64,000 bases of DNA, from the NCBI GenBank assembly GCA_015179125.1, contig WHVA01000215.1, forward strand, positions 114,880 through 178,879, given 5' to 3'. The translations under genes were made by a program, and so were the position numbers. Below the pieces are notes generated by a model. The model was not told where the DNA came from and did no database searches. It worked only from the letters and a program-made list of their open reading frames with translations. This document shows, piece after piece, positions 2,850 to 51,263 of the stretch. Numbering within the stretch: the first letter of the stretch is position 1; each line of letters opens with the position of its first letter. The stretch is from Gautieria morchelliformis (Eukaryota > Basidiomycota > Agaricomycetes > Gomphales > Gomphaceae).

Positions 2850-3302
2850 CCTAGGACTCATAGAGGTCATCCATGATGGCATCCTCTAGTGATTCTGATT
2901 TCATCGTATGGGGCCGGTGGAGCACGTGACTCCTCCGGAGGCACCTCCGCATCCGCAGGGGTGGTTGGGTGAGGGGGCTCTGCCTCACCACTGGCGGGGT
3001 TTTCCGCTTGGTTGACGAGGGCGGTGTCCTCGTGGAGCATGGCCTCGACGGCCGGGTCCTCAGCCTGGGGAGAAGGCCGGAAGTGCGCCAGCTCTTTATC
3101 GAGCTGAGCGTGGGTGAGCAGTCATGGCACTGTGGCCCTCACATGGCTGGTCTCGAGGACCTTTTGTTGGCCCTCCCGAGCGGCGGCACTGAATGCCGCG
3201 CCGGTGAGGCTGCGTTGAACGTAATGTTCAATGCGTGCCGCTCATTTGTGAGTGATGCCGGCGTAGCGGGCCAGCCATTGCGCGAGCTCGGCGAGCAGAA
3301 TG
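2850..3302 (-). pseudogene. Element D1, C-terminal part of 3' reading frame
   Basis: On the minus strand from 3302 the frame reads LLAELAQWLARYAGITH, then, past two in-frame stops, a region rich in Ala, Glu and Pro (NPASGEAEPPHP), ending near the polypurine tract of D1. No named domain is recognised. At 3302 it is broken by a Copia element whose flank is GAATG. The frame that would precede it lies at 44938-45328, whose end carries the same 5 bp (CATTC, reverse complement) beside the other Copia copy. The reading frame is uninterrupted across the joined junction. See the first finding. Confidence 0.6.
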
Positions 3303-3800
3303 TGTTGGGTGCATTTATGCTCCTGCACCAAAATCAAGCATAATATATCCAATTTGTTGTGTGGCCTTCCAATTTCTTCTCACATTGTTCTTGTATTATG
3401 CATCCATTTCTCTGGTTATTTTCGAAATTTTCCACTCATTCCTTATCTCTCTATTTCATCTTGTTATTCCTACTTTCACAAGCGGCTGCACCCAGCGGAG
3501 TCTGAAATGACTTCGACGCGCGAGCTCTTGGGCGCTAAAGGGCCGGGTAGTAGTACATGCGCAGTGGAACACATTTCCCCCTCTCTCAGTGACCACTAAA
3601 TTCACTGAGAGAGGCAAGTAAATTAGTCTAGTAGTCTTTGCATTTATTGACCTAGAAATGCTCTGTAGTGAATTGATTTCTAGGTAGTGTATAATATATT
3701 TACAGTGACCACTAAATTCACTGAGAGAGTGAATTGATTTCTAGTCTATTCTTTTGAATAACAAGTCCATACCTACTGCCTATAATTCCTGTCCTCTACA
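3303..3800 (+). repeat. Copia-1 5' LTR
   Basis: It is 498 bp and apparently identical to 8063-8560 and, inverted, to 45329-45826 and 50090-50587. At 3580-3612 a perfect 12-bp inverted repeat, CTCTCTCAGTGA / TCACTGAGAGAG, encloses a 9-base loop. The loop and right arm recur at about 3703-3727. Confidence 0.95.
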
Positions 3801-3814
3801 GGGTTATGGGCCCC
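3801..3814 (+). promoter_or_regulatory. Copia-1 candidate primer-binding site
   Basis: GGGTTATGGGCCCC directly follows the LTR and nearly complements the anticodon stem-loop (CUCAUAACCC) of initiator tRNA-Met. This resembles half-tRNA priming in Copia and Ty5. It overlaps the gag start codon at 3806. The assignment is inferred from pattern. Confidence 0.5.
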
Positions 3815-6800
3815 GGAGACACTTCTGAGAAGCTGTTGGGTGTTGAGAAGCTTGCTACTGATGGAAGTAATTGGCCATTGTGGCGAGCCACTCTCATCAG
3901 CTATTTCGAGTCCAAAAATTTGCTCAAGCATGTAGAAGGGAGAGTCACTCGACCTCCTGATCCTCCAGTCATGCCCCCAGGCCATATTCTAACAGAAGCT
4001 GAGGAAACTCAGATGGATAAGGCCGAGGAGAAGCTGGAGAGATACCTTGCTAGAGAAGGACAAGCCAAGACCCAAATCATCGTCTCAGTGTCAGAGTCAT
4101 TAGCCCTGATGCTACAGAAGCAGAAGACAGCAAAAGAGACTTGGGATGCACTGGTCAATGAAATGATCAAAAAGCCCAAGATGGTCCTCACCAGCCTGCA
4201 GAGACAACTCCGCAGTATGAGATGTCCTGAGGATGGAGACTTGAGAGATCACTTGGACAAGGCCCAAGACCTATATGCTCGTCTTAATGAGATGGGAGCT
4301 AGAGTTTCTGAAGAAGAATTCATGGACATAATCCTTGCGTCACTTCCACCATCCTATGAGGCAGTCATGAATGCCCTTACAACTTCGCTTGAAGAATGCG
4401 GGATGCCATTGGTCCCTGATAATATTATTAGGGTACTAAAGGCTCAGTATGACAGGAAGAAAACACTCCCGCAAGAAGAGCAGGTGTTTATTGGTTCATC
4501 TACTAAGAAGGACCAGAAGGGGCAGAAGGTGCATGTATGCACCAACTGCAAAAAGCCTGGACATTCCATCGAAAATTGCTGGGCTAAAGGAGGTGGTAAA
4601 GAAGGTCAAGGACCACGTCAGAAGAAGAAAGCCAAAGGCAAGAAGAAGAAGAAGGGTAAAGCAAAAGCGAATGTTGCCGAAGAAGAGTCTACTTCTGAGG
4701 AAAGTGGTGATGGGCATCTTGCCTTCACCAATTTTGACGAGTGCTCTAATTTCAATTTGAGCACATCCTCAGGAGTTATAGTCATACTCGACACCGGAAC
4801 GACATCGCATATGACTCCTCACAAAAATTTATTGAGGAACTACTGTCAATTCTCACAGCCGAGGACTATCCGAGCAGCCAACAAAGGTACCTTTGATGCC
4901 TTCGGCTCAGGACTGCTCGTATTATCCAATAAGGTTGGAGATAGAACAGTAGAAGTCACGTTGCAAGATACATACTATGCACCCAAAATTGCTGCTACCC
5001 TCGTCTCGATCGGTCGGTGCGATGATGCTGGCTACGACATTCGACTCGGTGGCCAGAAATGCACAATATCTAATGCTGCTGGAAAAGTATTGATGCAAGC
5101 ACCGAAAGTCAATGGCTTATATCGACTAGACCTCCAGTCACCAAGTGCTCAAGCCCATATGTGTTTATCTGCCATGGAAATTCATCAAAAGATGGGGCAC
5201 ATCTCGCAGAAGTCCCTACAACATCTATTAAATCATGGCATGATATTGGGCATTGAACTGAGCTCCACAGGCGATAGAATTGTCTGTGATGCGTGTATTC
5301 AGGCCAAGATTGCGCGCAAACCTCTTCCTCGAGAACCAGAGACCGAACATCAAAATTCGGTGACAGAATTTATTCTGATGTCTGGGGACCTGCAAGACAC
5401 CTCACGATCGATAAGAAGTCATATTATGTCTCCTTTATCGATGACTACTCAAGAGAATCGGTGATCTATCTCATGGCGAACAAATCAGAAGCATTCTCAA
5501 AGTACAAGCTCTACGAGGCTTTAATGCTTCGACAGAGAAATGTGCACATCAAGGCACTTGTTTCTGATCGAGGGGGCGAGTATACGAGCTCTGAATTCGA
5601 ACAGCATCTAGCCAAACAAGGCACGAAGCATCAGTTGACGGTACATGACACACCAGAGTCCAATGGTGTTGCGGAACGCCTGAACCGAACCCTCACTGAG
5701 AGAACTCGTGCCATGCTGCTAGAATCAAGCCTTCCTAAGATATTATGGGGCTATGCGATACAGCATGCCAATTATCTTAGGAACAGGACGCATACAAGAG
5801 CTCTACCAGATAAAACGCCCTACGAGATGATTCACCATGAAAAACCGAATCTCAAAGACATTCACGCGTGGGGAACTGAAATTTACGTTAAAATCACTCA
5901 GGGAGATAAATTGGCAGCTCGTGCCAAAAGAGCTCGGTGGATAGGAATTTCTGCGCAGAGCCATGGTCATTATGTTTATTGGCCTGACTCGCACAAAGTT
6001 TCTGTCGAGCGGAACGTTGTCTTTGATTCAGAAATGAAGAAGGGAAAGGTCCCAATCATTTCTATTGAGGAATCCAAGCTACCTACGTCTAAAGAAGAGA
6101 AGAAAGCCATTCCGGCATCAGTGCCTGTGCCCGGTCGCTTAGTCAGCGAAGAGGCAAAGATCGAAGAAATTGATGAAAGTGCACCGGAAGAATATCTTGA
6201 AAAGCTGCAACCTATTCAGGGAGTTGATGACAGACCTAGAGAAGCTGAACCGATAAGGAGAAGCGAAAGGATCCGTCAACAACAAGTGCAGCCGGCCCCA
6301 TCAGGTCCCGTGACAAGATCTCAAACTCAGAGACAAACTGGCGCACATATGACTACGCTAGCTTACGAGGACGTTGAGGACCATGAAGAAGTTTTATTCG
6401 ACCAAGAATTATCCTCCGAGATTGATGGCATCAGTAGCTATGAGTGTGCCATCAGTGCGTTTCTAACCGACGGTCAAAACAACATTAAGGCGCCGGATTT
6501 GAGTCAAATTGAACCTAGCAATGCAGACGAAGCTCTGAATAATCCTATGTGGAAGAAATCAATGGACAAAGAGTATGAGGCCCTAATCGACAAGGGAGTG
6601 TGGGAAAGAACCAAACCACCTCCTGGAGCCAACATTGTCGGCAACAAATGGGTCTACCTTTGGAAGCGTAATCCAGAAGGGAAACCAATAGTACCTAAAT
6701 CGAGAATGGTCGCCCAAGGCTTCACGCAGAAGTTTGGAATCGACTATGATGAGACATACTCACCTGTTGCTCGGTTATCCTCCCTACGGATCATATGCGC

Positions 6801-8049
6801 CATTGCTGCTAGGAATGACTGGCCTATTCATCAAATGGACGTGGACTATGCATACCTCAATGCTAAGTTGCCCGAACCTATTTACATGAAGCAGCCGTAT
6901 GGATATGAGTCAGGAGACAAAGGCGAAGTGCTACTTTTGAAGAAAGCACTCTACGGCCTCAAGCAATCTGGAAGAGAATGGTACAAACGTCTAAGTGGTG
7001 AATTCCACAAGTTAGGATTCACTACGTCAGCCACAGACGGGGCTGTATTTTATAGACGTGGCGGAAAGGGGCATGTGATCATTGCAACAGCTGTGGACGA
7101 CCTTACCATCACAGCTGAGAATCAATCAGTCCTGGACGAAGTCAAACGAGATCTTGCTCAGGTCTTCAGTATGAAAGATCTAGGCGAGATTCATTGGCTA
7201 TTGAATCTCAAAATCGAAAGAGACTGGCAGAAGAAGACCATTGCAATTTCACAACCTGCATACATCGAGAAGATCATCAAAAAATTTAATCTCGAAGATG
7301 CAAAGACTTATGCTACGCCTCTTGATCCAGCCGTAAAATTATCTAAAGACCAATGTCCTTCTACAGAGAGAGGCAAGAAAGCCATGTCGAAGTTTCCATA
7401 CAGGCAAGCTATAGGATCACTGATGTGGGCGGCTGTAGCCACTCGACCTGACATTGCATTTGCGGTGTCATTACTCTCGCAATTCCTTGAAAATCCAGGT
7501 GGCACACACTGGAATGCAGTCAAACGTGTCTTCAAATATTTGAAAGGCACGAAGCATTACAAGCTCACACTTGGAAGAAATCAAGACGGCTTGATGGGGT
7601 ATTCAGATGCGGATTGGGGTTCACAGAGTCATAGGCGTTCGTATTCGGCATACTTATTTCAGATTGATGGAGGCACTGTTTCATGGAGTTGCCAGAAACA
7701 GTCGATAGTAGCCCTCTCATCAACTGAAGCCGAATTCGTCGCCCTGACCCATGCGGGCAAAGAGGCTCTTTGGATGCGCCATTTTATTTCTGAAATATTC
7801 CAACCACTGAACAGACCCATCCAAGTTTATTCAGACAATCAATCAGCCATTGCCATCACGTATGGCACCCAACAACACACGAGAACCAAGCATTTCGACA
7901 TCAGGTTATATTTCCTTCGAGATATAATCAAAAATCAACAAGCCAAGCTCGTTTATTTGCCAACCGAACAAATGTTGGCAGATATCCTCACTAAAGGACT
8001 TCCTAGTCCTAGAGTGAAGATTCTCAACGAGCAAATCGGAATATATTAA
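3806..8049 (+). pseudogene. Copia-1 gag-pol with one frameshift
   Basis: This is the Gag-Pol polyprotein of the element. The first frame (3806-5464) holds Gag with a CX2CX4HX4C zinc knuckle near residue 245, the protease motif ILDTGTTSHMT near residue 329 and the pre-integrase HHCC region. The second frame (open from 5293, useful from about 5336 to 8049) holds the integrase core, RT with AVDD, and RNase H with SDADWG and LSSTEAEF. Compared with Copia-2, one C is missing at about 5335 (GAACCAGAG instead of GAACCCAGAG), which breaks the frame at the start of the integrase core. A few substitutions (Ile for Thr, Lys for Gln) also differ. The rest looks functional, so this copy is a very young pseudogene. 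Confidence 0.9.
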
Positions 8050-8062
8050 GCTTGAGGGGGCG

Positions 8063-8560
8063 TGTTGGGTGCATTTATGCTCCTGCACCAAAATCAAGCA
8101 TAATATATCCAATTTGTTGTGTGGCCTTCCAATTTCTTCTCACATTGTTCTTGTATTATGCATCCATTTCTCTGGTTATTTTCGAAATTTTCCACTCATT
8201 CCTTATCTCTCTATTTCATCTTGTTATTCCTACTTTCACAAGCGGCTGCACCCAGCGGAGTCTGAAATGACTTCGACGCGCGAGCTCTTGGGCGCTAAAG
8301 GGCCGGGTAGTAGTACATGCGCAGTGGAACACATTTCCCCCTCTCTCAGTGACCACTAAATTCACTGAGAGAGGCAAGTAAATTAGTCTAGTAGTCTTTG
8401 CATTTATTGACCTAGAAATGCTCTGTAGTGAATTGATTTCTAGGTAGTGTATAATATATTTACAGTGACCACTAAATTCACTGAGAGAGTGAATTGATTT
8501 CTAGTCTATTCTTTTGAATAACAAGTCCATACCTACTGCCTATAATTCCTGTCCTCTACA
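8063..8560 (+). repeat. Copia-1 3' LTR
   Basis: It is 498 bp, matching the 5' LTR base for base as far as I can read. It is followed by CATAC at 8561-8565 rather than the GAATG found upstream of the element. Confidence 0.95.
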
Positions 8561-9161
8561 CATACATGCTACCCTGCACGGACTCTTCGTCTACTGGGTT
8601 GATCCCACACGACCTACGGAAGGGACGTCCTGCGAACACACTTTGGCCATATGAACACCCAAAGGGGTTGGATTAAGAAGATGATGGGGTTAGTGATGAG
8701 CCATCGTGGCGGGTAAATGGTATTGATCGTATTTGATGGCGTGCCTGCTGGCGAAATGCGCGAGCGGTGAATAGCAGTTCGGAGAAATGCAAGGAAGGGC
8801 GAACCGGAACGACATAGGGGAGAAGTGGTTGAAGTGGAGGGCAAAGCCGAGCGAACACAGGGGGAGGAGTGGCAAAAGGGGAAATGGGGATAACAAGGTC
8901 CAGGAAATACACAAGTCATGACAGTCCGATCATAGGAACACCATCGAAAGAGGGTTGAGCAGAGGAGGTGATAGGCCCAGCGATGACTGCTAAGTTAGTT
9001 CAGGGACGTCGATCGTGCTTCGATGGCGTGGCCATGGTAAATTGCGCGAACAGCGAGGATCGGTTGCCAAACACGGGAAGGGCGATCGGAACGAACACGA
9101 AGGTGGAGTGAGAAATGGAAGAACAGAGCATCTGAGTATGGGAACTAAACACGTCATGACA
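8561..9161 (-). repeat. LTR-B, 5' half (cut by Copia)
   Basis: Read on the minus strand from 9161 (TGTCATGACGTG) this follows the intact LTR-B at 35630-36900 for its first half and stops at the Copia boundary. The outer flank, CCGTC at 9162-9166, is the reverse complement of GACGG found after the other half, which ends at 51263. Together the halves make 1272 bp against 1271 bp for the intact copy. Confidence 0.9.
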
Positions 9162-9726
9162 CCGTCGTCTGGGGCTTGCCTTTTTTGCCTTCGTCCTCCT
9201 TCGGGGACGATCGTCGTCACTCTACTTCGTGAGCGGCGGTTCGAGTCGTGGCTTTGTGCCCGTCTCAGTGTTGATGCTCTACCGTCTGATGACAGCGAGA
9301 CCTCTCTGCCTTTTACCTTGTCTCTGGGCAGAGGGGATTGGGGGGGCGGCACCGGCTTGTTGCCCGGCGCCGTCTCATCCTCGACCACACTCAACGAGAC
9401 ATGGTCGGGATTTTCCTCCTCCTCTATTGGGGGACGAGGGTGGTGAGACCTATGATCCCTCCATCTTCTGGCATCCTGGACTCTTGGTCCAGGGTAGCGT
9501 CAGCCATCATGTCACTGGGCTGTGCCTGTGGCATGGACTGTGAGCTCGACGCTCGTGTCTGTCTTTGACTGCGTGGAATCATCACGCTCGCAGCCGACAT
9601 TAGAGGGTGGTCTACTGGAGGGTATCAACGATGTTTAGTCGTCGACGCAGCAATCTTTTTCAAGATTGCTTCGAATCCCCAATCAGTTGGTCGCATGGCA
9701 ATCAACCGCAGGATAGTTCAAAAAGG
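9162..9726 (-). pseudogene. Element D1 5' leader and N-terminal frame
   Basis: On the minus strand, after LTR-D, there is a leader of about 125 bp. A frame then starts with ATG at 9600 (MSAASVMIPRSQRQTRASS), rich in Ser, Gln, Arg and Pro, with at least one stop or frameshift before 9400. It continues in another frame (RPQKRQ/APDD-type basic stretch) to the LTR-B insertion at 9162. It looks like a disordered Gag N-terminus. By flank matching (GACGG) its continuation lies at 51264. No domain is recognised. Confidence 0.5.
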
Positions 9727-9941
9727 TGTAAAGATGTCGATTTGAAGACCTTGTATCACAAGGGCACAACAGAACTTGACCAATGAGTGGTATTCTGAAA
9801 TGCTACATAGTGACAGGTAAGAGTAAGATGCGATGGGAACCACTGCCTGGTTCCCATGCATAAACTATACAGTGGGTCCCGAAGGGGCCCACTGGGATTA
9901 TGTAATAACTAGTGTACATGTAGATACATAGGTTATTTACA
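9727..9941 (-). repeat. LTR-D, 5' LTR of element D1
   Basis: It is 215 bp, nearly identical to 2603-2816 and in the same orientation. The CCCAG after it completes the target duplication. The pair shows that D1 once spanned 2603-9941 as one minus-strand element inside the G1 gag. Confidence 0.85.
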
Positions 9942-11276: not shown

Positions 11277-11327
11277 TTTTTCTGACCCTCATGTCAGGAT
11301 TGGTTCTTTTAGGGATTAAGAGTGGGG

Positions 11328-11634: not shown

Positions 11635-11639
11635 AGTGA

Positions 11640-12330: not shown

Positions 12331-12829
12331 TGTTAGAAACTTGGGGTTATTGCAGGGAAGGTTCGGTAGAGTTCTTAGAAAGCTAGAATCAAATACACTC
12401 TCTCAGTGAATTTATTGTCACTGTTATATTGATACAATACCTAGAATCAAATACACTACATGATTTTCAGTCAACATGCTATGTAAATGCTATGTAAATA
12501 TGAAAGATACTACTCGCCTCTCTCAGTGAATTTATTGTCACTGAGAGAGGAGTACAATCCTGTCTCAGAAGGCATATACATGCACCCGGCCCTTTAGCGC
12601 TCAAGAGCTCGCGCGTCGAAGTCATTTCAAACTCCGCTGGGTGCAGCCGCCTGTGAAAGTAGAGATAACAAAGTGAAATAGAGAGATAAGGAGTGGCTGG
12701 AATTTTTCGAAAATAATCAGAGAAATGAATGCATGGTACAAGAACAATGTGAGAAGAAATTGAAACACCATACAATAAATCGAATATATTATGCTTGATT
12801 TTGGTGCAGGAGCATAAATGCACCCAACA
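12331..12829 (-). repeat. Solo Copia LTR (Copia-3-like)
   Basis: Minus-strand LTR of 499 bp, starting TGTTGGGTGCATTTATG at 12829 and ending at TGTTAG (12331 on the plus strand). AGCGA stands on both sides (12326-12330 and 12830-12834), a perfect 5-bp target duplication. It resembles the Copia-3 LTR (CAATAAATT loop in the hairpin). It arose by insertion followed by LTR-LTR recombination. Confidence 0.9.
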
Positions 12830-27258: not shown

Positions 27259-29025
27259 TCACCGCAGCTGTAAGATGCTTTCTCCAGTAGCCGCCCTCTG
27301 CGTCTTGTGTTCTTTCTTCTTCTTGGGAACCTCCCACAACCTCCAAAACTTGAGGTTCTCGTCCCCAGCTCCAGTGCATACAACATCGCCTTGAGGGCTG
27401 ACCTGAGAAAATAGTACCCGGGAATCATGGGCGTCACGTATTTCGGCCACGCGCTCCATCGAGGGATACGCATGTATCATAAGAGAGTTTGTTGGATATC
27501 CATGTGTTGTAAAGATTTCTTTTTTGTGTGGCGCAAACTTGACGGACGTAATCTGCGAAGGCGTCTTCACAGAATGAATACGAGCCCCTGTGGTGATGTT
27601 CCAGATATGAAGGGTCGTATCAGAAGTGCCGCCCCCAGTAGCGAGGAGGGCAGGTTGCCACGGGCACCAGGAGAGACCCTGTGAAGAAGAACAATTAAAA
27701 CAATATAAAGGGAATTGCTCGGACATTATACCTTGACAGCAGCCGTATGTGTTCTCTTGGTCATTGTCGGAACACCGTCGTGATCACTCCCAGCATCACC
27801 CATTCTTGCATCCCAGACATTGACCACATTATCGTTTCCTCCACTGGCAATATACTCGCCATCCCCGCGCCATTCCAATCCACAAACTTCCCCGGTGTGA
27901 CCTAACAATTCGCATGCCTTGTGTCTCGCGACCCTTACATCATGATGCCAGATGCTCCCGTCACCACAGCCCGAACTGACTATGTGCCCATTCCATGACA
28001 TACAGGCAACTTGTCCTTGATGGCCTGCCATTGTACGTAACTTCGATCCCGTCTCTATATCTCGGAGTTCAACATCTCCTGTGCCCATGCCAATGGCAAG
28101 GAACATCCCATCGTTGGAAAAAGAAACCGAAGACACATAGGAACCCTCAGGTGCCTCAGCTATTTGTGTGACACTTCCACTGTCGGCGCGCCAAATATAG
28201 GTCGTTTCGGATAATGCGACAGCCACGACGTTTGTCGAAGACCAAGAAAGAAGATTGAGATAGAAGTCATCTGGCATATCGTGTATGAGACTGGGGCATG
28301 CAACAGCGACGAGAATACGTACCAACCATGCCCGGGGCATCCAACACACGCTCCGGCTGAGACGGTATTTTGCGGGTTTTGTTCGTACTGACGGACACCG
28401 AATTCGCAATTGCACCAGGTCGTTGGTAAAGTGCCCGAGCTTGGAGACGTTGTTGACTCAAGTCTTTGTCAGCCGATGGCATTGGAGGAGCCTCATGGTA
28501 CTTCAAAACTCTATCCCCCACAGCAATACCTGCTGCTTCAGCTAAGCGGGCAACGTGTCTCGGCGAACCATCTGGATGAAACTCCTTCATAGGAACTGCT
28601 GCGATGTCGCTATCATCGAGGCCTCGTGATCGGGGCAAAAAACGGTCCTCCGTGCCGAGTCTTCCCATAGATTTTGATCGCTTCGGCGACCGTTTTGTCT
28701 GCACAGGAGGGAAATAATCATGACGGACGACATCCATCCGACTCTCAATCCCCCCCCTTCGAACCACACCTGAGTTTGCCTGTCTTTGTAATTCGGCATT
28801 GACAACAAAGGCATTGTTGGATTGCTTGTCTGGTGAAGGCGGCCGCGAAAGAAATGGGTTTCCGGTGAGATCTTGGATATGTGTGCGTCGTGGTTTCACA
28901 GGTGAGCCACCAAGAGACAAAGCGTTGAGCCCAGCTGTCAATGATGGTGTCAGCGGAGGGCGTGAACGGGAAGGTGTCTTTGGCTTATGCGATTTATGGG
29001 AAGTGGATGTTTTGGTAGAAGCCAT
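27259..29025 (-). CDS. cdc20: APC/C co-activator Cdc20 (Slp1-type WD40 protein)
   Basis: Three exons (29025-28323, 28270-27732, 27678-27259) with introns of 52 and 53 bp give 553 residues. The N-terminal third is basic and disordered, with a C-box-like DRFLP at residues 127-131 (usually DRYIP). A seven-bladed WD40 propeller starts near residue 235 (VLDAPGMVDDFYLNLLSWS). Cdc20-type signatures include KRTHTAAVKGLSWCPWQP, LLATGGGTSD, EIFTTHGYP, AHDSRVL and DENLKFWRLWEV. The C-terminus is Leu-Arg, a variant of the Ile-Arg tail that binds APC3. Cdc20 recruits securin and cyclin B to the anaphase-promoting complex and is the target of the spindle checkpoint. The start is taken at MASTKTSTS; an ATG 36 bp upstream is possible. 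Confidence 0.92.
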
Positions 29026-29420
29026 ACCGTGGACGCACGTGACAGGGCGCGCTTGGAACACGCGTACGTGTCACGTGATTTGACTGGACTTCAAATTCTC
29101 CATAAGAATCCTTCACCATACGTAAGTATAGGTCACAAATTTAATCAAGTGACCGGTGATAAGCAGATGTGTCCTATCGACGAAAAAACTCCTCACGGTC
29201 AGCTCGACATTTGATGTTTGTCAGTGATGATATAGTCGCATTTGCTTTTCCACAGGAGTCGGGAATACACGGTATATACCTGATATATCCTGAGGTAAGT
29301 CTCGGGACACCACCGTAAGGCCTCGAATACCGACCTCGCGCTTTCATGCATGGTATGGAGGTTGGGAAAGGTTGCCTGCTGAATCTCAATGAATGACATG
29401 AGTACCGCATCAACACACTT
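29026..29420. other. Intergenic region
   Basis: I see no gene. It separates the Cdc20 start from the stop of the next minus-strand gene and should hold the cdc20 promoter. Confidence 0.5.
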
Positions 29421-31053
29421 TCATGCTCTGCTCTCTTTGACCAGTCGCCCAGCCTCCTTCCCCGCTCGGCGACCGAAAACGGCGCCAGAAGTCAATCCAC
29501 TCCCTCCAGGATAATTTCCCCAGAATATGTTACCAACCATCTCCCCAGCACAGAGTAATCCATCAATCGTCTCATCTCCGCCAGGTTTTATTACTGCAGC
29601 CGTCTCCGCATCGATTGGTAACCCGCCAAATGTGAACGTAACACCACATGTGATTTTCACAGCGACGAATGGAGGCTCATCCAATGTCCTTGCCCAATTT
29701 GACTTGGGTATTTCCAGGCTCTTTGCTGATGACTGCGACCCTAGTCCATCCTTAACTGCCGGATTAAATTGTCTCCCTGGAAATTCCGCTGCGAATGCTT
29801 TGACTGCTTCGTTATATTCGTTCAGAGTCTCCAAAAAAGCTGCCGAATCCCTAAGCCCCTCTTTCTCAAGCAGCCTGGCCAGCTCCTCGATTGAGGGTGC
29901 TTCAATTCGTTTCGTCACATTGTCGCCATACTCTTCGATCCGCAACATCCCTGTCCCTTTCTGGTCCCATACTTGAAAAGCAAAGCCACCTGGTTGCCTT
30001 AGCGTCGCTTTCCCGTATATGGCATAAGTATAGTTTCGATAGTCCGCGCCCTCGTCGACGTAACGTCGTCCTTCAGAGTTCACCATCAATCCTAGAGGGT
30101 ATCCAGACTTCGTGTATGCGTTGGTCAAATCACGAGAGCCTCCAAGTCTAGGTGAGTTAAAGTCCCAGCACGTCGAGTGACATCCAGCCCAGTCGCCCAC
30201 GAGATCTGGCCGTAGACCCGGAGGAAGATCAAGTGCCAACTTGAAACCGTCACCCTGGTTATAGGGCGTGCCGCGCACCTGGGGACATTGTGAGTGAAAC
30301 ATGTACTCTACCCTGATGCGGGATATTTACTCGAGCGTGATCCCAGCCCGGGCCCAAGTACTTGACTCTCATATCCTTATTAGCCTCAAATCCACCACAT
30401 GCCAAGATCACAACTCTGGCCGTGAGCGTTTCTTGTTTCGGTGGATGGTGGTTATACGTGACATTGACTCCCCTCACATGCTCGCCATGTACCACTACGA
30501 ACCCAACGACAGTGGTTTCCCACCTGAATTGTATTCCCAATTTCGTGGCCTTGTCCATCAGAGCCTCCACAAGACCCTTACCCCCGGCTTGTGCCGCCAG
30601 CTCCAGTCCTCCCCAGAACTTAATTCTTCCTCCCACCTCATAGGCTTGGCGATGTGAGGGAAATGCGAACCTTACTCCAACACTCTCCGTAAGCCATGTG
30701 ATCACTTCTCTACTATCTCCCACGAGAGCGTCCACCAATTTCATGTCCGACTTTCTGTTCCCCAGCCTGAGTATATCCTCGACGAACTGCTCTTTCGTGT
30801 AGGGCTCGATGTCGATCCGATTCAACCGACTTTCGTCTTTCTCCGCCATTCTCACTGCTGACCGAAGATCCTGGAGTCCTCCATGGACGGTTCGGAATGC
30901 GCCAGCGGTGAAGTAGCTATTGCCGCCTGCCCATTCCACCGGTGCTTTATCAACAATAAGCACACGCGAGGGCTCACATCCTGCTTCGACGGCGGCGATC
31001 GCAGCACATAAGGCAGCGTTCCCTGTCCCTAGGACTATGCAGTCGTAATCCAT
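29421..31053 (-). CDS. FAD-dependent dehydrogenase, fumarate reductase/tricarballylate dehydrogenase-like
   Basis: Two exons (31053-30331 and 30278-29421) with a 52-bp intron give about 526 residues. An in-frame ATG at 31140 would add 29. The N-terminus is a dinucleotide-binding fold (MDYDCIVLGTGNAALCAA, then VLIVDKAP). Further FAD_binding_2 features are GGNSYFTAGAFR, ARVVILACGGFEAN, RGTPYNQGDGFKLAL and the C-terminal LLCAGEMVGNIFWGNYPGGSGL. The best resemblance is to the tricarballylate dehydrogenase (TcuA) branch of the fumarate reductase/succinate dehydrogenase flavoproteins. No signal peptide is seen. The substrate in fungi is unknown, and I infer only an FAD-linked oxidoreductase of an organic acid or similar compound. 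Confidence 0.8.
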
Positions 31054-31317
31054 GGGAGATTCGGCCAACGTGACATCGATGTGACGCAGCCTAATCCCAC
31101 GGCCTACGACTTCTTTCTGCAGCCTCTTGTCAGCCGACACACCACTACACGCCCAAAAGTTCCTGACGCAAGTTTATGCCAAGTAAGCCGACGTAATCCA
31201 TGGTATCCAGCCGGATGGATTTAAAGTCATGTTTATGGTGTTGATAAAGGGAAGGTCACTTGGTCATCAAGTCGGAGGTTTTCGTCAGCCTGGGGCCCAA
31301 AGTACCTGGTGAATGTA

Positions 31318-35629: not shown

Positions 35630-36900
35630 TGTCATGACGCGTTTATTTCCCATACTCAGATGCTCTGTTCTCCCATTTCTCACTCCACCTCCGTGTTCGT
35701 TCCGATCGCCCTTGCCGTGTTCGGCAACTAATCTTCGCTGTTCGTGCCATTTACCATAGCCACGCCGTCAAAGCACAATCAACGTCTTTGGACTGACTTG
35801 GCAGTCATTGCTGGACCTATCACCTCCTCTGCTTGATCCTCTTTCGATGGTGTTCCTATGATCGGATTGTCATGACTTGTGTATTTCCTGCACCTTGTTA
35901 TCCCCATTTCCCCTTTCACCACTCCTCCCCCGTGTTCGCTTGGCTTCGCCCTCCACCTCGACCACTCCTCCCCTATGTCATCTCTGTTCGCCCTTCCTCG
36001 CATTTCGCCAAACAGCCATTCGCTGCTTGCATCATTCGCCAGCAGGCACACCATCAAATCACGATCGACATACCTACCCAGCATGATGGCTCGTCAGTAG
36101 TTCCATCAGCTTCTCGATCCAACCCCCTTTTGGTGTTCATATGAGCAGGGTGCGTTCGTGGGACGTCCTACCCGTAGGTTGTGTGGGATCAACCCAGTAG
36201 ATGAAGAACCCGTGCAGGGCAGTGTATATGCGGGCCCCAAGACATGATTTCGTACATAGGTGCCTTCGCCACCTTCACTCTCCGTCGTTTCATGTTCTCC
36301 CTCTTCTCTCACTCTATTGTATGTTTATTTCATCTATGTTGTATCACGACTGTGCAACCCTATCCAACCCTGACTCGTGACAGCCTCTTTCCTATTCGCT
36401 GATACCTTATGAGCATTCGATATAAGTAGTGTGCATTCGCATGTATATTCCCCAGTTCAATTATCATACGTCGTCCATCTTGTGCAAACTTGACCTCACT
36501 GTGATCATTGTCTTGAGCCTTCTCTTGGAGATTTCTATCTTTACCAGCAGAGGACTTAGGCATCACTGGTGAGTTCTCATACTTCATCTTCGTTACCTTA
36601 GCCTTCGAACTATTTTCTGCGCTGTCGGCGGAGGGCTCCGAAGGAGCACCTTCGCCGGCGAAGGGATTGCCGCTAATTAGACAGCCCTTCCGTGACACCT
36701 TGCACGTTACATTGTCAAGTACCACGGGCCATTTCGCTATGACTGTAGATAGGGCGAGCTCCGTTTGGGCAACCCTCTTATCTTGTGAACATTTATTGGT
36801 TCACCTATTCGCCAAACGGTATACTTATTCGCACAAGTTATTTGGGCATTCGCTGTGTTCACTAATACATGATATTAACGCCTAAAAACCAATCTTGACA
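35630..36900 (+). repeat. Intact solo LTR-B (reference copy)
   Basis: 1271 bp, TGTCATGACGCG to CCAATCTTGACA, with TAATA on both sides (35625-35629 and 36901-36905). There is no coding content. It serves as the reference for six other partial or nested LTR-B copies in the window. Confidence 0.92.
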
Positions 36901-39302: not shown

Positions 39303-40306
39303 AATCCCCATTTCCCCTTTCGCCACTCCTCTCCCGTGTTCGCTCGGCTTTGCCCTCCACTTCAACCACTTCTCCCCTATGTCATTCCCGTTCGCCATTC
39401 CTTGCATTTCTCCGAACCGCTATCTGCTGCTCGCGCATTTCGCCAGCAGGCACACCATCAAAAAACGATCAATACCATTTACCCAGCAAGATGGTTCATC
39501 ACTAACCCCATAACCTTCTTAATCCAACCCCTTTGGGTGTTCATATGGCCAAAGTGTGTTCGCAGGACGTCCCTTTTGTAGGTCGTGCGGGATCAACCCA
39601 GTAGACAAAGAGTCCGTGCAGGGTAGCATGTATGCGGGTCCCAAGACATGGTTTTGTACATGAATGCCTTTGCCACCTTTACTCTCCGTCGTTTCATGTT
39701 CGCACCCTTCCCTCACTCTATTGTATGTTTATTCCATCTACTTAGTATCATGACTGCCGCACCCCTATCCAACCCTGACTCGCGACGGCCTCTTTCCTAT
39801 TTGCTGATGCCTTACGAGCATTCAATATAAGTAGTTTACATTCGCATGTATATTCTCCAGTTCAATTATCATATGTCGTCCATCTTGTGCAAACTTGACC
39901 TCGCTGTGATCGTCGCCTTGAGCCTTCTCTTGGAGATTTCTATCTTCAACAAGCAGAGGACTTAGGCATCACTGGTGAGCTCTCATACTTCATCTTCATT
40001 ACCTTAGCCTTCGAACTATTCTCTGTGCTGTTGGTGAAGGGCTCCGAAGGAGCACCTTCGCCGGTGAAGGGATTGTCGAGACTTAGACAGCCCTTCCGTG
40101 AGACCTTGCACGTTACATCATCAAGTACCACGGGCCATTTCGCTACGACTGTAGATAGGGTGAGCCTCATTTGGGCAACCCTCTTACCTTGTGAACATTC
40201 ATTGGTTCACCTATTCGCCGAACGGCATACTTATTCACACAAGTTATTTGGGCATTCGCTGTGTTCACTAATACACGATATTAACACCTAAAAACCAATC
40301 TTGACA
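39303..40306 (+). repeat. LTR-B copy lacking its first part
   Basis: It aligns with the reference LTR-B from about its base 275 to the CTTGACA end. At 39601-39665 it reads straight through the sequence where, in another LTR-B copy, Copia is inserted (GTAGCATGTATG then GGTCCCAAGACATGG). It therefore serves as an unoccupied paralogous site. Confidence 0.85.
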
Positions 40307-42673: not shown

Positions 42674-42846
42674 CAGGTTTAGCTGGAAACATTGGAAACC
42701 CTCTAGTTTCAGGCACGGTAAAACGCTGCTGCATTCAGGAGAGCCACCTGGGGGGATTCCAAGATCAGGTTTGGCTTGGTCTTGGCCATAGAGGTGCGAG
42801 CAGCCGAAGCCGGCAGGGGTTCCACAGGACTGCCCGGGAGGGTAGT

Positions 42847-43830: not shown

Positions 43831-44479
43831 GAATGACCAACTCACGACTGTGCTCCTGGGTTTAGATCTGACTGATCTAGTGAGATTCAAGCTCTGACAT
43901 GCAATTTTCATGTGTAGAATGAGGACATGAAGGGATTTCTAGAACCCGATGGAACCCAGAGGTGTCGTAGACCTCAGGAGCTCATATATCATAGCTCATC
44001 ATAGTGGAGGGCAAGACACATTGTATATTGGGTGTGTTTGCCTAGGTCGCGTACTTTACAAACCATACATAAATTTTCCTAGCCTAGATATATGGAAGCT
44101 GCCACGTCTTGACTCTCATACAATAACTTAGGCTTAGGTCATAAATATCATTTCCTGGCTAAGTGAGTTAAATATTAAGACTAGCTCTCTAAGTCAAAAC
44201 CACCTGAACGTGGCTATCCCAGGCCATAACAGATCGGAAATCTCAATACCCTAGTGAGGTTGATTATTCAGATGCGAGGTTAGTCCTACATTGGCATACT
44301 TATGGGTCTGCCCAGGAATCCAGATTCCGGGGCTGTTCATACAGTTGAAAAGGGCGGTACATATCATCTACTCAGAGTACTCTAATGTTGAAATAGACAG
44401 TCTATCTGTCGTTGCCTGAATAGGTGTGCCCCCCAGGGTCATTGGGAAATGTTCCATTTTCAAATATTACTTCTCTAAA
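43831..44479. other. No gene recognised
   Basis: There is no open frame with a family pattern and no repeat shared elsewhere in the window, apart from a short LTR-B-like string (GGTCCAGGAAATACA) at its right end. Confidence 0.45.
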
Positions 44480-44937
44480 AGGTCCAGGAAATACATGTGT
44501 GCCTGTTGGCGAATGATGCGAGCAGCGAATGGCTGTTTGGCAAATGCGAGGAATGGCGAATGGAGATGACATAGGGGAGGAGTGGTCAAGGTTGAGGGCG
44601 AAGCCGAGCGAACACGGGGGAGAAGTGCTGAAAGGGGAAATGGGGATAACAAGGTGCAGGAAATACACAAGTCATGACAATCCGATCATAGGAACACCAT
44701 CGAAAGAGGGTTGAGCAGAGGAGGTGATAGGCCCAGTGATGACTGCCAAGTCAGTCCAAAGATGTCGATCGTGCTTTGACGGCGTGGCTATGGTAAATGG
44801 CACGAACAGCGAAGATCGGTGGAGAGCCACTACATCTTCATCCCGAACACTGCAAGGGCGATCGGAACGAACACGGAGGTGGAGTGGGGAATGGGAGAAT
44901 AGAGCATCTGAGTATGGGAAATAAACGCGTCATGACA
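44480..44937 (-). repeat. LTR-B copy, 5' part only
   Basis: On the minus strand it starts TGTCATGACGCGTTTATTTCCC at 44937 and follows the reference for about 440 bp, then breaks off near 44495. It lies directly upstream of the element D segment at 44938. Confidence 0.85.
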
Positions 44938-45328
44938 GGCCTGTTCAAGCACATCGAGTGCAAGCAGCACGCTCGCATTCCCAAAAGGGACTGTCTTGTG
45001 ATAGCGAGTGGTACCCCGCATGACATCGCCGCCATCCTAAGGGGTTGGATACACAACCCCAAAGGAATCCCATCTGCCATCCGTGACAACAAGGATGGAA
45101 CCTTCAACCTAGACGACATGGATGTCTGGATGTGGTTGAAGGCACTCGCGCCCCGAGTTAAAGGGGTCGCGTCACATCTCAAGTTGAGACTCCTCGACTT
45201 GTTCGGCTCCACCGGCCAATGGTCAAGCCTCGTCGATGCCAGGGAATGCCTGACACCGCAGAGCACCAGCCTGCAGCTATCCATCACGGGTCCATATCCC
45301 GTGGGAGGCCAAGTTGGCCCCAACATTC
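44938..45328 (+). pseudogene. Element D, segment of 3' reading frame
   Basis: An open frame runs through this segment (ASGTPHDIAAILRGWIHN, NLDDMDVWMWLKALAPR, LDLFGSTGQWSSLVD) to the Copia boundary. I have a vague memory of similar sequences in Agaricomycete transposons but cannot name a domain. The last five bases are CATTC, the complement of GAATG at 3298-3302. Joining across that site keeps the frame into 3302-2850 on the minus strand. It therefore belongs before the D1 C-terminal segment. Confidence 0.6.
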
Positions 45329-45826
45329 TGTAGAGGACAGGAATTATAGGCAGTAGGTATGGACTTGTTATTCAAAAGAATAGACTAGAAATCAATTCAC
45401 TCTCTCAGTGAATTTAGTGGTCACTGTAAATATATTATACACTACCTAGAAATCAATTCACTACAGAGCATTTCTAGGTCAATAAATGCAAAGACTACTA
45501 GACTAATTTACTTGCCTCTCTCAGTGAATTTAGTGGTCACTGAGAGAGGGGGAAATGTGTTCCACTGCGCATGTACTACTACCCGGCCCTTTAGCGCCCA
45601 AGAGCTCGCGCGTCGAAGTCATTTCAGACTCCGCTGGGTGCAGCCGCTTGTGAAAGTAGGAATAACAAGATGAAATAGAGAGATAAGGAATGAGTGGAAA
45701 ATTTCGAAAATAACCAGAGAAATGGATGCATAATACAAGAACAATGTGAGAAGAAATTGGAAGGCCACACAACAAATTGGATATATTATGCTTGATTTTG
45801 GTGCAGGAGCATAAATGCACCCAACA
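45329..45826 (-). repeat. Copia-2 3' LTR
   Basis: 498 bp, apparently identical to the Copia-1 LTRs in inverted orientation. The adjoining polypurine tract reads CGCCCCCTC on the plus strand from 45827. Confidence 0.95.
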
Positions 45827-45839
45827 CGCCCCCTCAAGC

Positions 45840-48800
45840 TTAATATATTCCGATTTGCTCGTTGAGAATCTTCACTCTAGGACTAGGAAGTCCTTTAGTG
45901 AGGATATCTGCCAACATTTGTTCGGTTGGCAAATAAACGAGCTTGGCTTGTTGATTTTTGATTATATCTCGAAGGAAATATAACCTGATGTCGAAATGCT
46001 TGGTTCTCGTGTGTTGTTGGGTGCCATACGTGATGGCAATGGCTGATTGATTGTCTGAATAAACTTGGATGGGTCTGTTCAGTGGTTGGAATATTTCAGA
46101 AATAAAATGGCGCATCCAAAGAGCCTCTTTGCCCGCATGGGTCAGGGCGACGAATTCGGCTTCAGTTGATGAGAGGGCTACTATCGACTGTTTCTGGCAA
46201 CTCCATGAAACAGTGCCTCCATCAATCTGAAATAAGTATGCCGAATACGAACGCCTATGACTCTGTGAACCCCAATCCGCATCTGAATACCCCATCAAGC
46301 CGTCTTGATTTCTTCCAAGTGTGAGCTTGTAATGCTTCGTGCCTTTCAAATATTTGAAGACACGTTTGACTGCATTCCAGTGTGTGCCACCTGGATTTTC
46401 AAGGAATTGCGAGAGTAATGACACCGCAAATGCAATGTCAGGTCGAGTGGCTACAGCCGCCCACATCAGTGATCCTATAGCTTGCCTGTATGGAAACTTC
46501 GACATGGCTTTCTTGCCTCTCTCTGTAGAAGGACATTGGTCTTTAGATAATTTTACGGCTGGATCAAGAGGCGTAGCATAAGTCTTTGCATCTTCGAGAT
46601 TAAATTTTTTGATGATCTTCTCGATGTATGCAGGTTGTGAAATTGCAATGGTCTTCTTCTGCCAGTCTCTTTCGATTTTGAGATTCAATAGCCAATGAAT
46701 CTCGCCTAGATCTTTCATACTGAAGACCTGAGCAAGATCTCGTTTGACTTCGTCCAGGACTGATTGATTCTCAGCTGTGATGGTAAGGTCGTCCACAGCT
46801 GTTGCAATGATCACATGCCCCTTTCCGCCACGTCTATAAAATACAGCCCCGTCTGTGGCTGACGTAGTGAATCCTAACTTGTGGAATTCACCACTTAGAC
46901 GTTTGTACCATTCTCTTCCAGATTGCTTGAGGCCGTAGAGTGCTTTCTTCAAAAGTAGCACTTCGCCTTTGTCTCCTGACTCATATCCATACGGCTGCTT
47001 CATGTAAATAGGTTCGGGCAACTTAGCATTGAGGTATGCATAGTCCACGTCCATTTGATGAATAGGCCAGTCATTCCTAGCAGCAATGGCGCATATGATC
47101 CGTAGGGAGGATAACCGAGCAACAGGTGAGTATGTCTCATCATAGTCGATTCCAAACTTCTGCGTGAAGCCTTGGGCGACCATTCTCGATTTAGGTACTA
47201 TTGGTTTCCCTTCTGGATTACGCTTCCAAAGGTAGACCCATTTGTTGCCGACAATGTTGGCTCCAGGAGGTGGTTTGGTTCTTTCCCACACTCCCTTGTC
47301 GATTAGGGCCTCATACTCTTTGTCCATTGATTTCTTCCACATAGGATTATTCAGAGCTTCGTCTGCATTGCTAGGTTCAATTTGACTCAAATCCGGCGCC
47401 TTAATGTTGTTTTGACCGTCGGTTAGAAACGCACTGATGGCACACTCATAGCTACTGATGCCATCAATCTCGGAGGATAATTCTTGGTCGAATAAAACTT
47501 CTTCATGGTCCTCAACGTCCTCGTAAGCTAGCGTAGTCATATGTGCGCCAGTTTGTCTCTGAGTTTGAGATCTTGTCACGGGACCTGATGGGGCCGGCTG
47601 CACTTGTTGTTGACGGATCCTTTCGCTTCTCCTTATCGGTTCAGCTTCTCTAGGTCTGTCATCAACTCCCTGAATAGGTTGCAGCTTTTCAAGATATTCT
47701 TCCGGTGCACTTTCATCAATTTCTTCGATCTTTGCCTCTTCGCTGACTAAGCGACCGGGCACAGGCACTGATGCCGGAATGGCTTTCTTCTCTTCTTTAG
47801 ACGTAGGTAGCTTGGATTCCTCAATAGAAATGATTGGGACCTTTCCCTTCTTCATTTCTGAATCAAAGACAACGTTCCGCTCGACAGAAACTTTGTGCGA
47901 GTCAGGCCAATAAACATAATGACCATGGCTCTGCGCAGAAATTCCTATCCACCGAGCTCTTTTGGCACGAGCTGCCAATTTATCTCCCTGAGTGATTTTA
48001 ACGTAAATTTCAGTTCCCCACGCGTGAATGTCTTTGAGATTCGGTTTTTCATGGTGAATCATCTCGTAGGGCGTTTTATCTGGTAGAGCTCTTGTATGCG
48101 TCCTGTTCCTAAGATAATTGGCATGCTGTATCGCATAGCCCCATAATATCTTAGGAAGGCTTGATTCTAGCAGCATGGCACGAGTTCTCTCAGTGAGGGT
48201 TCGGTTCAGGCGTTCCGCAACACCATTGGACTCTGGTGTGTCATGTACCGTCAACTGATGCTTCGTGCCTTGTTTGGCTAGATGCTGTTCGAATTCAGAG
48301 CTCGTATACTCGCCCCCTCGATCAGAAACAAGTGCCTTGATGTGCACATTTCTCTGTCGAAGCATTAAAGCCTCGTAGAGCTTGTACTTTGAGAATGCTT
48401 CTGATTTGTTCGCCATGAGATAGATCACCGATTCTCTTGAGTAGTCATCGATAAAGGAGACATAATATGACTTCTTATCGATCGTGAGGTGTCTTGCAGG
48501 TCCCCAGACATCAGAATAAATTCTGTCACCGAATTTTGATGTTCGGTCTCTGGGTTCTCGAGGAAGAGGTTTGCGCGCAATCTTGGCCTGAATACACGCA
48601 TCACAGACAATTCTATCGCCTGTGGAGCTCAGTTCAATGCCCAATATCATGCCATGATTTAATAGATGTTGTAGGGACTTCTGCGAGATGTGCCCCATCT
48701 TTTGATGAATTTCCATGGCAGATAAACACATATGGGCTTGAGCACTTGGTGACTGGAGGTCTAGTCGATATAAGCCATTGACTTTCGGTGCTTGCATCAA

Positions 48801-50084
48801 TACTTTTCCAGCAGCATTAGATATTGTGCATTTCTGGCCACCGAGTCGAATGTCGTAGCCAGCATCATCGCACCGACCGATCGAGACGAGGGTAGCAGCA
48901 ATTTTGGGTGCATAGTATGTATCTTGCAACGTGACTTCTACTGTTCTATCTCCAACCTTATTGGATAATACGAGCAGTCCTGAGCCGAAGGCATCAAAGG
49001 TACCTTTGTTGGCTGCTCGGATAGTCCTCGGCTGTGAGAATTGACAGTAGTTCCTCAATAAATTTTTGTGAGGAGTCATATGCGATGTCGTTCCGGTGTC
49101 GAGTATGACTATAACTCCTGAGGATGTGCTCAAATTGAAATTAGAGCACTCATCGAAATTGGTGAAGGCAAGATGCCCATCACCACTTTCCTCAGAAGTA
49201 GACTCTTCTTCGGCAACATTCGCTTTTGCTTTACCCTGCTTCTTCTTCTTGCCTTTGGCTTTCTTCTTCTGACGTGGTCCTTGACCTTCTTTACCACCTC
49301 CTTTAGCCCAGCAATTTTCGATGGAATGTCCAGGCTTTTTGCAGTTGGTGCATACATGCACCTTCTGCCCCTTCTGGTCCTTCTTAGTAGATGAACCAAT
49401 AAACACCTGCTCTTCTTGCGGGAGTGTTTTCTTCCTGTCATACTGAGCCTTTAGTACCCTAATAATATTATCAGGGACCAATGGCATCCCGCATTCTTCA
49501 AGCGAAGTTGTAAGGGCATTCATGACTGCCTCATAGGATGGTGGAAGTGACGCAAGGATTATGTCCATGAATTCTTCTTCAGAAACTCTAGCTCCCATCT
49601 CATTAAGACGAGCATATAGGTCTTGGGCCTTGTCCAAGTGATCTCTCAAGTCTCCATCCTCAGGACATCTCATACTGCGGAGTTGTCTCTGCAGGCTGGT
49701 GAGGACCATCTTGGGCTTTTTGGTCATTTCATTGACCAGTGCATCCCAAGTCTCTTTTGCTGTCTTCTGCTTCTGTAGCATCAGGGCTAATGACTCTGAC
49801 ACTGAGACGATGATTTGGGTCTTGGCTTGTCCTTCTCTAGCAAGGTATCTCTCCAGCTTCTCCTCGGCCTTATCCATCTGAGTTTCCTCAGCTTCTGTTA
49901 GAATATGGCCTGGGGGCATGACTGGAGGATCAGGAGGTCGAGTGACTCTCCCTTCTACATGCTTGAGCAAATTTTTGGACTCGAAATAGCTGATGAGAGT
50001 GGCTCGCCACAATGGCCAATTACTTCCATCAGTAGCAAGCTTCTCAACACCCAACAGCTTCTCAGAAGTGTCTCCGGGGCCCAT
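45840..50084 (-). CDS. Copia-2 Gag-Pol polyprotein, intact
   Basis: One uninterrupted frame of 1414 codons. In order: Gag (residues 1 to about 230); zinc knuckle CTNCKKPGHSIENC near 245; aspartic protease ILDTGTTSHMT near 329; pre-integrase HHCC (HQKMGHIS, CDACIQAK). Next comes the integrase core with YSDVWGP, SDRGGEYTS and the downstream Glu of ESNGVAERLNRTL. RT follows (NKWVYLWKRNPEGKP, MDVDYAYLNAKL, TAVDDLTI near 1097), then RNase H (YSDADWG, LSSTEAEFVAL) and HTRTKHFDIRLYFLRD near the end. Copia makes virus-like particles, copies its RNA and integrates. The RT box reads AVDD in place of YVDD. The start codon overlaps the primer site. Confidence 0.95.
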   Translation of the reverse strand: MGPGDTSEKLLGVEKLATDGSNWPLWRATLISYFESKNLLKHVEGRVTRPPDPPVMPPGHILTEAEETQMDKAEEKLERYLAREGQAKTQIIVSVSESLALMLQKQKTAKETWDALVNEMTKKPKMVLTSLQRQLRSMRCPEDGDLRDHLDKAQDLYARLNEMGARVSEEEFMDIILASLPPSYEAVMNALTTSLEECGMPLVPDNIIRVLKAQYDRKKTLPQEEQVFIGSSTKKDQKGQKVHVCTNCKKPGHSIENCWAKGGGKEGQGPRQKKKAKGKKKKQGKAKANVAEEESTSEESGDGHLAFTNFDECSNFNLSTSSGVIVILDTGTTSHMTPHKNLLRNYCQFSQPRTIRAANKGTFDAFGSGLLVLSNKVGDRTVEVTLQDTYYAPKIAATLVSIGRCDDAGYDIRLGGQKCTISNAAGKVLMQAPKVNGLYRLDLQSPSAQAHMCLSAMEIHQKMGHISQKSLQHLLNHGMILGIELSSTGDRIVCDACIQAKIARKPLPREPRDRTSKFGDRIYSDVWGPARHLTIDKKSYYVSFIDDYSRESVIYLMANKSEAFSKYKLYEALMLRQRNVHIKALVSDRGGEYTSSEFEQHLAKQGTKHQLTVHDTPESNGVAERLNRTLTERTRAMLLESSLPKILWGYAIQHANYLRNRTHTRALPDKTPYEMIHHEKPNLKDIHAWGTEIYVKITQGDKLAARAKRARWIGISAQSHGHYVYWPDSHKVSVERNVVFDSEMKKGKVPIISIEESKLPTSKEEKKAIPASVPVPGRLVSEEAKIEEIDESAPEEYLEKLQPIQGVDDRPREAEPIRRSERIRQQQVQPAPSGPVTRSQTQRQTGAHMTTLAYEDVEDHEEVLFDQELSSEIDGISSYECAISAFLTDGQNNIKAPDLSQIEPSNADEALNNPMWKKSMDKEYEALIDKGVWERTKPPPGANIVGNKWVYLWKRNPEGKPIVPKSRMVAQGFTQKFGIDYDETYSPVARLSSLRIICAIAARNDWPIHQMDVDYAYLNAKLPEPIYMKQPYGYESGDKGEVLLLKKALYGLKQSGREWYKRLSGEFHKLGFTTSATDGAVFYRRGGKGHVIIATAVDDLTITAENQSVLDEVKRDLAQVFSMKDLGEIHWLLNLKIERDWQKKTIAISQPAYIEKIIKKFNLEDAKTYATPLDPAVKLSKDQCPSTERGKKAMSKFPYRQAIGSLMWAAVATRPDIAFAVSLLSQFLENPGGTHWNAVKRVFKYLKGTKHYKLTLGRNQDGLMGYSDADWGSQSHRRSYSAYLFQIDGGTVSWSCQKQSIVALSSTEAEFVALTHAGKEALWMRHFISEIFQPLNRPIQVYSDNQSAIAITYGTQQHTRTKHFDIRLYFLRDIIKNQQAKLVYLPTEQMLADILTKGLPSPRVKILNEQIGIY

Positions 50085-50089
50085 AACCC

Positions 50090-50587
50090 TGTAGAGGACA
50101 GGAATTATAGGCAGTAGGTATGGACTTGTTATTCAAAAGAATAGACTAGAAATCAATTCACTCTCTCAGTGAATTTAGTGGTCACTGTAAATATATTATA
50201 CACTACCTAGAAATCAATTCACTACAGAGCATTTCTAGGTCAATAAATGCAAAGACTACTAGACTAATTTACTTGCCTCTCTCAGTGAATTTAGTGGTCA
50301 CTGAGAGAGGGGGAAATGTGTTCCACTGCGCATGTACTACTACCCGGCCCTTTAGCGCCCAAGAGCTCGCGCGTCGAAGTCATTTCAGACTCCGCTGGGT
50401 GCAGCCGCTTGTGAAAGTAGGAATAACAAGATGAAATAGAGAGATAAGGAATGAGTGGAAAATTTCGAAAATAACCAGAGAAATGGATGCATAATACAAG
50501 AACAATGTGAGAAGAAATTGGAAGGCCACACAACAAATTGGATATATTATGCTTGATTTTGGTGCAGGAGCATAAATGCACCCAACA
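50090..50587 (-). repeat. Copia-2 5' LTR
   Basis: 498 bp, apparently identical to the other three LTRs of this subfamily. GTATG follows at 50588-50592. Confidence 0.95.
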
Positions 50588-51263
50588 GTATGCAGGTCCC
50601 AAGACATGGTTTTGTACATGAATGCCTTCGCCACCTTTACTCTCCGTCGTTTCATGTTCGCACTCTTCCCTCACTCTATTGTATGTTTATTCCATCTACT
50701 GAGTATCATGACTGCGCACCCCTATCCAACCCTGACTCGCGACGGCCTCTTTCCTATTCGCTGATGCCTTACGAGCATTCGATATAAGTAGTTTACATTC
50801 GCATGTATATTCTCCAGTTCAATTATCATACGTCGTCCATCTTGTGCAAACTTGACCTCGCTGTGATCATCATCTTAAGCCTTCTCTTGGAGATTCCTAT
50901 CTTCGACCAGCAGAGGACTTAGACATCACTGGTGAGTTCTCATACTTCATCTTTGTTACCTTAGCCTTCAAACTATTTTCTGTGCTGTCGGCGAAGGGCT
51001 CCGAAGGAGCACCTTCGCTGGCAAAGGGATTGTCACTACTTAGACAGCCCTTCCGTGACACCTTGCACGTTGTATTGTCAAGTGCCACGTGCCATTTCGC
51101 TACGACTGTAGATAGGGTGAGCCCCGTTCGGGCAACCCTCCTATCTTGTGAACACTCATTGGTTCACGTATTCGCCGAATGGCATACTTATTCGCACAAG
51201 TCATTCGGGCATTCGCTGTGTTCACTAATACACGATATTAACGCTTAAAAACCAATCTTGACA
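50588..51263 (+). repeat. LTR-B, 3' half (cut by Copia)
   Basis: It continues the reference LTR-B from the Copia insertion point to the CTTGACA end. GACGG follows at 51264-51268, matching the flank of the other half at 9162-9166 (CCGTC on the plus strand). It is the partner of 8561-9161. Confidence 0.9.

Follow-up and report, generated by a model that had tools for sequence, protein, structure and literature searches.

Here, we report that two long terminal repeat (LTR) retrotransposons of the Copia type, lying in inverted relative orientation in a 64,000-nucleotide stretch of the Gautieria morchelliformis genome, carry a genuine footprint of exchange with each other. The stretch (the window) is C244:114880-178879, where C numbers denote contigs of the assembly (122 Mb, 1113 contigs). 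Each element has one half of each of two target-site duplications at its ends, i.e., the flanks of two insertion sites are swapped between the two copies. We slightly favor, at a probability of roughly 0.52, a true inversion in the living genome through ectopic recombination between the copies over a turn of the same segment made by the assembler; this figure and the weight we give to the assembler are judgements and were not computed. The two elements were delimited by sequence comparison:

3303-8560, plus strand: Copia-1, full-length LTR retrotransposon, 5258 bp
45329-50587, minus strand: Copia-2, full-length LTR retrotransposon, 5259 bp

The two copies are 99.9% identical. Their alignment differs by four single-nucleotide polymorphisms (SNPs) at element positions 865, 1350, 1433, and 1436 and by a 1-bp indel near 2034, i.e., all differences are confined to positions 865-2034, and positions 2035-5258 (3.2 kb) are identical. 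The two 498-bp LTRs of Copia-1 (TGTTG...CTACA, of the TG...CA type) are identical to each other and to both LTRs of Copia-2; among 30 LTR places fetched from the best 40 matches, only the four of the window are identical over 498 bp. Copia-2 has a single open reading frame (ORF) of 1414 amino acids at 45840-50084, in which Pfam places Retrotran_gag_2 at 64-219, rve at 525-612, and RVT_2 at 932-1173. In Copia-1, the ORF is split (3806-5464 and 5293-8049) by a 1-bp deletion near 5335 which is absent from 12 other aligned copies. The family is Ty1/Copia, with the integrase encoded ahead of the reverse transcriptase, a copia-type gag, TG...CA LTRs, and a 5-bp duplication.

The swapped duplications were read directly from the flanks:

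3298-3302, plus strand: GAATG, half of the site Y duplication, left of Copia-1
8561-8565, plus strand: CATAC, half of the site X duplication, right of Copia-1
50588-50592, minus strand: CATAC (element orientation), half of the site X duplication, before Copia-2
45324-45328, minus strand: GAATG (element orientation), half of the site Y duplication, after Copia-2

This pattern (GAATG/CATAC and CATAC/GAATG in element orientation) had been noticed in a sequence-only reading of the same DNA; it is exact on re-reading, and the longer flanks agree. By hand calculation, the chance of two independent 5-bp agreements is about 1 in a million (1/1024 squared). Because five base pairs make a short match, longer flanks were tested as well. 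For site X, the reverse complement of 8561-9200 was joined to 50593-51300 and aligned within the window, and an 800-base version with the junction at 400 was compared with the assembly. For site Y, 2300-3302 was joined to the reverse of 44300-45323, again with an 800-base version for the assembly. Please note that the assembly-wide junction counts cover the best 40 candidates per site, not all repeat copies. The rejoined site X flanks align across the junction to window 35630-36900 (88%) and 39304-40306 (93%), and the junction is crossed in all 40 of the best 40 candidates scored, at 94-97% identity, with two additional shorter matches in the assembly search. The rejoined site Y flanks are crossed at the junction in 7/7 non-self loci (L002-L008) and also in L033, and all 40 best candidates from the assembly cross it at 85-91%, each over at least 781 of the 800 bases. 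The alignments delimit the following features, with the extents of the repeat Y halves as matched by locus L005:

8561-45328, no strand: segment of 36.8 kb whose inversion restores both insertion sites, from the rejoined-flank alignments
8561-9161, minus strand: interrupted repeat X, one half, from the rejoined-flank alignment
50588-51263, plus strand: interrupted repeat X, other half, from the rejoined-flank alignment
35630-36900, plus strand: intact repeat X, 88% to the joined halves, by alignment
39304-40306, plus strand: intact repeat X, 93% to the joined halves, by alignment
2603-3302, plus strand: interrupted repeat Y, one half
44938-45328, minus strand: interrupted repeat Y, other half

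Repeats X and Y are each broken in the window with their halves at opposite ends, and inverting 8561-45328 repairs both; therefore, a reciprocal exchange between the copies separates the assembly from the ancestral order. The earlier view that an inversion is the simplest single event is in line with this repair. It had also been stated that each copy carries half of its own and half of the other's duplication; two sites have indeed been exchanged, but neither site can be assigned to one particular copy.

In the scenario we favor, two members of a young Copia family would have landed about 37 kb from each other in opposite orientation: one in a copy of repeat Y, duplicating GAATG, and the other in a copy of repeat X, duplicating CATAC. 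A later homologous crossover within the elements, presumably in the living genome, would have inverted the intervening DNA and left each element with one flank of each site. The crossover may have fallen within the identical 3.2-kb tract, and the cluster of differences at 865-2034 may represent conversion that accompanied the exchange. Exchanged duplications are commonly explained by ectopic recombination between inverted copies, and the exchange here is reciprocal, local, and inverted, with both sites rebuilt and one event fitting the geometry. The chance that five differences cluster in 1170 bp is about 0.01 (about 0.04 with the doublet counted once). Over 2035-5258, Copia-1 has 15 differing sites against L048 (one of three C14 copies) and none against Copia-2, and over 865-2034 it has 3 against L048 and 4 against Copia-2. 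In the first 2 kb, Copia-1 is 3 SNPs away from L020, a copy on another contig, and 4 from Copia-2. The Copia-2 variant at 1433 is common to 4 of 11 other aligned copies, and the remaining variants are private. The high relatedness of the two window copies over 2035-5258 and the lower one over 865-2034 are as conversion during the exchange would produce, but a mixed consensus could produce them too.

Several points weigh against a true inversion, and we set them out together here. Reciprocal chimerism of Copia-1 and Copia-2 is not clear from four SNPs and one indel. The identical tract, together with the identical LTRs, has a length at which an assembler can go astray: the organism would then have GAATG-Copia-GAATG and CATAC-Copia-CATAC, and the assembler would have crossed within the near-identical elements and turned the inner segment. 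We regard such an artifact as quite possible, if not the first choice. Support for it comes from the family as a whole. The 5' LTR/primer-site junction (at most one mismatch) occurs at 393 places in the assembly, 193 forward and 200 reverse. Besides the window pair, 65 elements were examined (30 in listing order, which follows contig order and covers the first of these places, 29 with a same-contig neighbor listed, and 6 with both ends among LTR-matched loci), which is not a random sample; 43 were scorable and 22 were not (ends missing, cut, or degenerate). Their duplications match 5/5 in 28 copies, 4/5 in 3, and 3/5 or fewer in 12, the last including one ambiguous copy (C150:79895) whose duplication lies 4 bases off. 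Misassembly had rightly been named as a rival in the sequence-only reading; with 12/43 scorable copies discordant, it deserves more weight than it received there.

Four of the discordant copies, on C58, C69, C279, and C132, each have one flank in common with a concordant copy on another contig (C308, C929, C38, and C518, respectively). The shared flanks run over 303, 301, 301, and 149 aligned positions with 0 SNPs and 1, 7, 0, and 0 gap bases, i.e., 1054 aligned positions, 0 SNPs, and 8 gap bases combined, and the twins lie 5.3, 9.5, 4.4, and 3.0 kb from their own contig ends. Judged from the sequence, most of these four look like wrong assembly joins through the element, because a contig end of this kind should arise when reads traverse the element properly but the longer contig has followed a different branch. 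Two arrangements existing side by side, or a duplication of segments, would give the same picture. The C58 copy (L053, C58:187987-194446) is a hybrid, with 27 SNPs between its two LTRs, which represent different subfamilies; its flanks come from two sites, and its 5' flank is that of the C308 copy, which carries ACATA on both sides. The first 0.86 kb of this hybrid has mostly the variants of one subfamily and most of the rest those of the other, with the switch at about 0.86-1.0 kb; the later part has patches of the first subfamily's variants, which are seen too in copies L054 and L056. Some contigs also end within a copy, and one such end (L049) shows numerous small indels (37 gaps).

The inverted neighbors add a further count on this side. 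Among the elements read, 15 pairs in opposite orientation lie on the same contig within 100 kb, of which 13 are scorable on at least one side and two (C166, C271) are not. Ten of the 13 are unswapped: C1, C14:258159/262663, two on C141, C228, C279, C150, C189, and two on C238. The other three are swapped (C244, which is the window, C158, and C14 on its one readable side); the window pair was chosen for being swapped and is therefore left out of the rate, which becomes 2/12. Our analysis draws on the assembly sequence.

Evidence for the inversion comes from the search for the other pairing. Each of the four element flanks has a single 100% place in the assembly, the window itself, unlike the shared flanks of the C58, C69, C279, and C132 copies. 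The next-best matches are 91% for 3103-3302, 97% for 8561-8960, 98% for 50588-50987, and 92% for 44929-45328. Within the inner segment, a gene stretch (28267-31140) occurs once in full, and a further match of 296 bases at 91% lies on C550. Searches with the four flanks and this gene stretch found no unswapped allele and no contig end with the other pairing in this assembly, and likewise no sign of the second nucleus implied by the earlier reading. More than half of the scorable copies, i.e., the 28 exact ones and the 3 at 4/5, are traversed concordantly. Other wrong partners were on offer, such as L020 in the first 2 kb, yet the partner in the window is the inverted neighbor; random wrong joins among about 393 copies would be expected to select the inverted neighbor rarely.

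Two further cases also speak for the inversion, C158 as a second complete one and C14 as a half one. Three of the 12 discordant copies sit in such inverted neighbor pairs (C158:194739-, C158:198639+, and C14:246911-). On C158, the flanks are CCAGA/TCATC for 194739- and TCATC/CCAGA for 198639+, a full swap; when rejoined, both sites run through the junction in alignments with repeats of the window or of fetched loci, and the four LTRs of the pair differ from one another by at most one base. On C14, 246911- has flanks TAGAC/AATAG, and AATAG also stands in front of its neighbor 262663+, a half swap. The rejoined AATAG site aligns across the junction to a related LTR, window 12352-12829, at 91%, whereas the second copy of this pair runs off the contig. 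C14:241262-267376 holds three close Copia copies (L047, L048, and L049) within about 26 kb. Two C14 copies, 246911- and 258159-, are free of SNPs between about 1.0 and 4.9 kb, yet their LTRs each show 4 differing sites, a pattern that suggests conversion or mixing.

To find partners for the discordant copies, the assembly was screened with junction patterns requiring an exact LTR end, which yielded the C308 and C929 twins. The patterns with TAGAC (the missing end of the C14 pair) and TGGAG (C114:204650) had no match in the assembly. Thirteen candidate partner 5' ends were fetched, of which nine (L102-L106, L108, L110, L112, and L113) are without an LTR start and not scorable. Five discordant copies are without an established partner: C91 and C150:12685, whose candidate 5' ends were unreadable, C114:204650, C150:79895, and C238:395024, for which no partner search was made. 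C144 and C163 (TCCAG) and C267 and C726 (CATAC) were rejected as partners; they have only the 5-mer in common, not the flank. Also rejected was a half-swapped pair of C150 12685+ and 79895- through their shared GGCCT: the other side agrees at 0/5, and the 3' flank of 79895- itself carries GGAGGGCCT.

The identity of the four window LTRs, unique among the places fetched, and the near-identity of the four on C158 would also suit a crosswise co-integration, in which two cDNAs insert simultaneously at neighboring sites and each complex joins one end of each cDNA, giving the inversion and the swapped duplications in one step without homologous recombination. We consider this very unlikely. The two copies of the window are not each other's nearest relatives over the first 2 kb and carry private differences; the C58 hybrid, which may be an assembly product, shows exchange within the element body, which the model does not give; and no retrotransposon precedent was noticed in the openly licensed literature searched. 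A broader proposal, also unlikely but less so, is that a recently multiplied Copia family repeatedly flips DNA between inverted neighbors (C244, C158, C14) during or soon after insertion, possibly through crosswise co-integration, such that a burst of insertion would be a burst of small inversions.

The sequence-only reading had held excision and reinsertion of a circle to be equally possible. This would shuffle flanks too, but no result of the analysis supports it, and it needs direct copies or extra events, whereas inverted copies on the same chromosome yield an inversion, not a circle, when they cross over. Since the copies face in opposite directions in the present order and in the repaired one alike, one inversion is enough and no circle has to be invoked; we regard the circle as extremely improbable.

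The inner segment includes coding sequence. Two adjoining ORFs at 29421-31140 each match part of FAD_binding_2 and are probably exons of one gene. Among named proteins, the exon of the FAD-binding protein has its best matches in Lyophyllum and Pisolithus (49%), and that of a recyclin/Sec10-like protein in Gautieria morchelliformis (68% over 75% of the query); the Sec10 Pfam match of the latter protein is just below the cut-off. These best-scoring named matches all belong to Agaricomycetes, and the idea of a rust fungus as host is not borne out.

Other repeats were observed in the window. A second, related Copia-like element (51380-56227, 80-81% to the first) adjoins the outer flank of Copia-2; it has an ORF with a copia-type gag (51785-53239) and the repeated segments 51380-51516/55975-56111 and 51678-51793/56112-56227. 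A solo-LTR-like stretch at 12331-12829 is 83% to the Copia-1 LTR and 91% to the rejoined C14 site. A direct repeat of about 480 bp (58564-59039 and 60008-60483, 1.4 kb apart, with 93% identity) could represent the two ends of a small LTR-type element, and about 136 bp at 56855-56990 match their own reverse complement at 83%, an imperfect palindrome.

If the inversion is true, it would be a recent retrotransposon-driven inversion of tens of kb in a fungus, recent in that the four LTRs are identical over 498 bp, and C158 would be one further pair with a complete footprint in the same genome. If the assembler turned the segment instead, duplication agreement across a young LTR family would serve as a read-free test for wrong joins, flagging 12 of the 43 copies scored in our non-random sample.

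The event is of a known kind; in the openly licensed literature searched, we noticed no fungal Copia element described with exchanged duplications. In PMC2775673, the Drosophila buzzatii inversion 2z3 is ascribed to the transposon Galileo, and ectopic recombination is deduced there from copies that are inverted and chimeric and whose duplications are exchanged. Our case is like 2z3 in having copies in opposite orientation at the segment ends with exchanged target-site duplications. According to the same paper, Galileo is a DNA transposon with 7-bp duplications, whereas here an LTR retrotransposon with 5-bp duplications bounds a segment of 36.8 kb; there, non-inverted chromosomes were sequenced and both copies are chimeric, whereas here the comparison is within one assembly and chimerism is not resolvable. 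It is stated in PMC7251063 that unequal homologous recombination of LTR retrotransposons leaves intact elements without duplications. As in that case, a crossover between different copies would here yield full-length elements with unmatched flanks; unlike there, the window shows which copy was the partner, with an exchange that is reciprocal and inverted.

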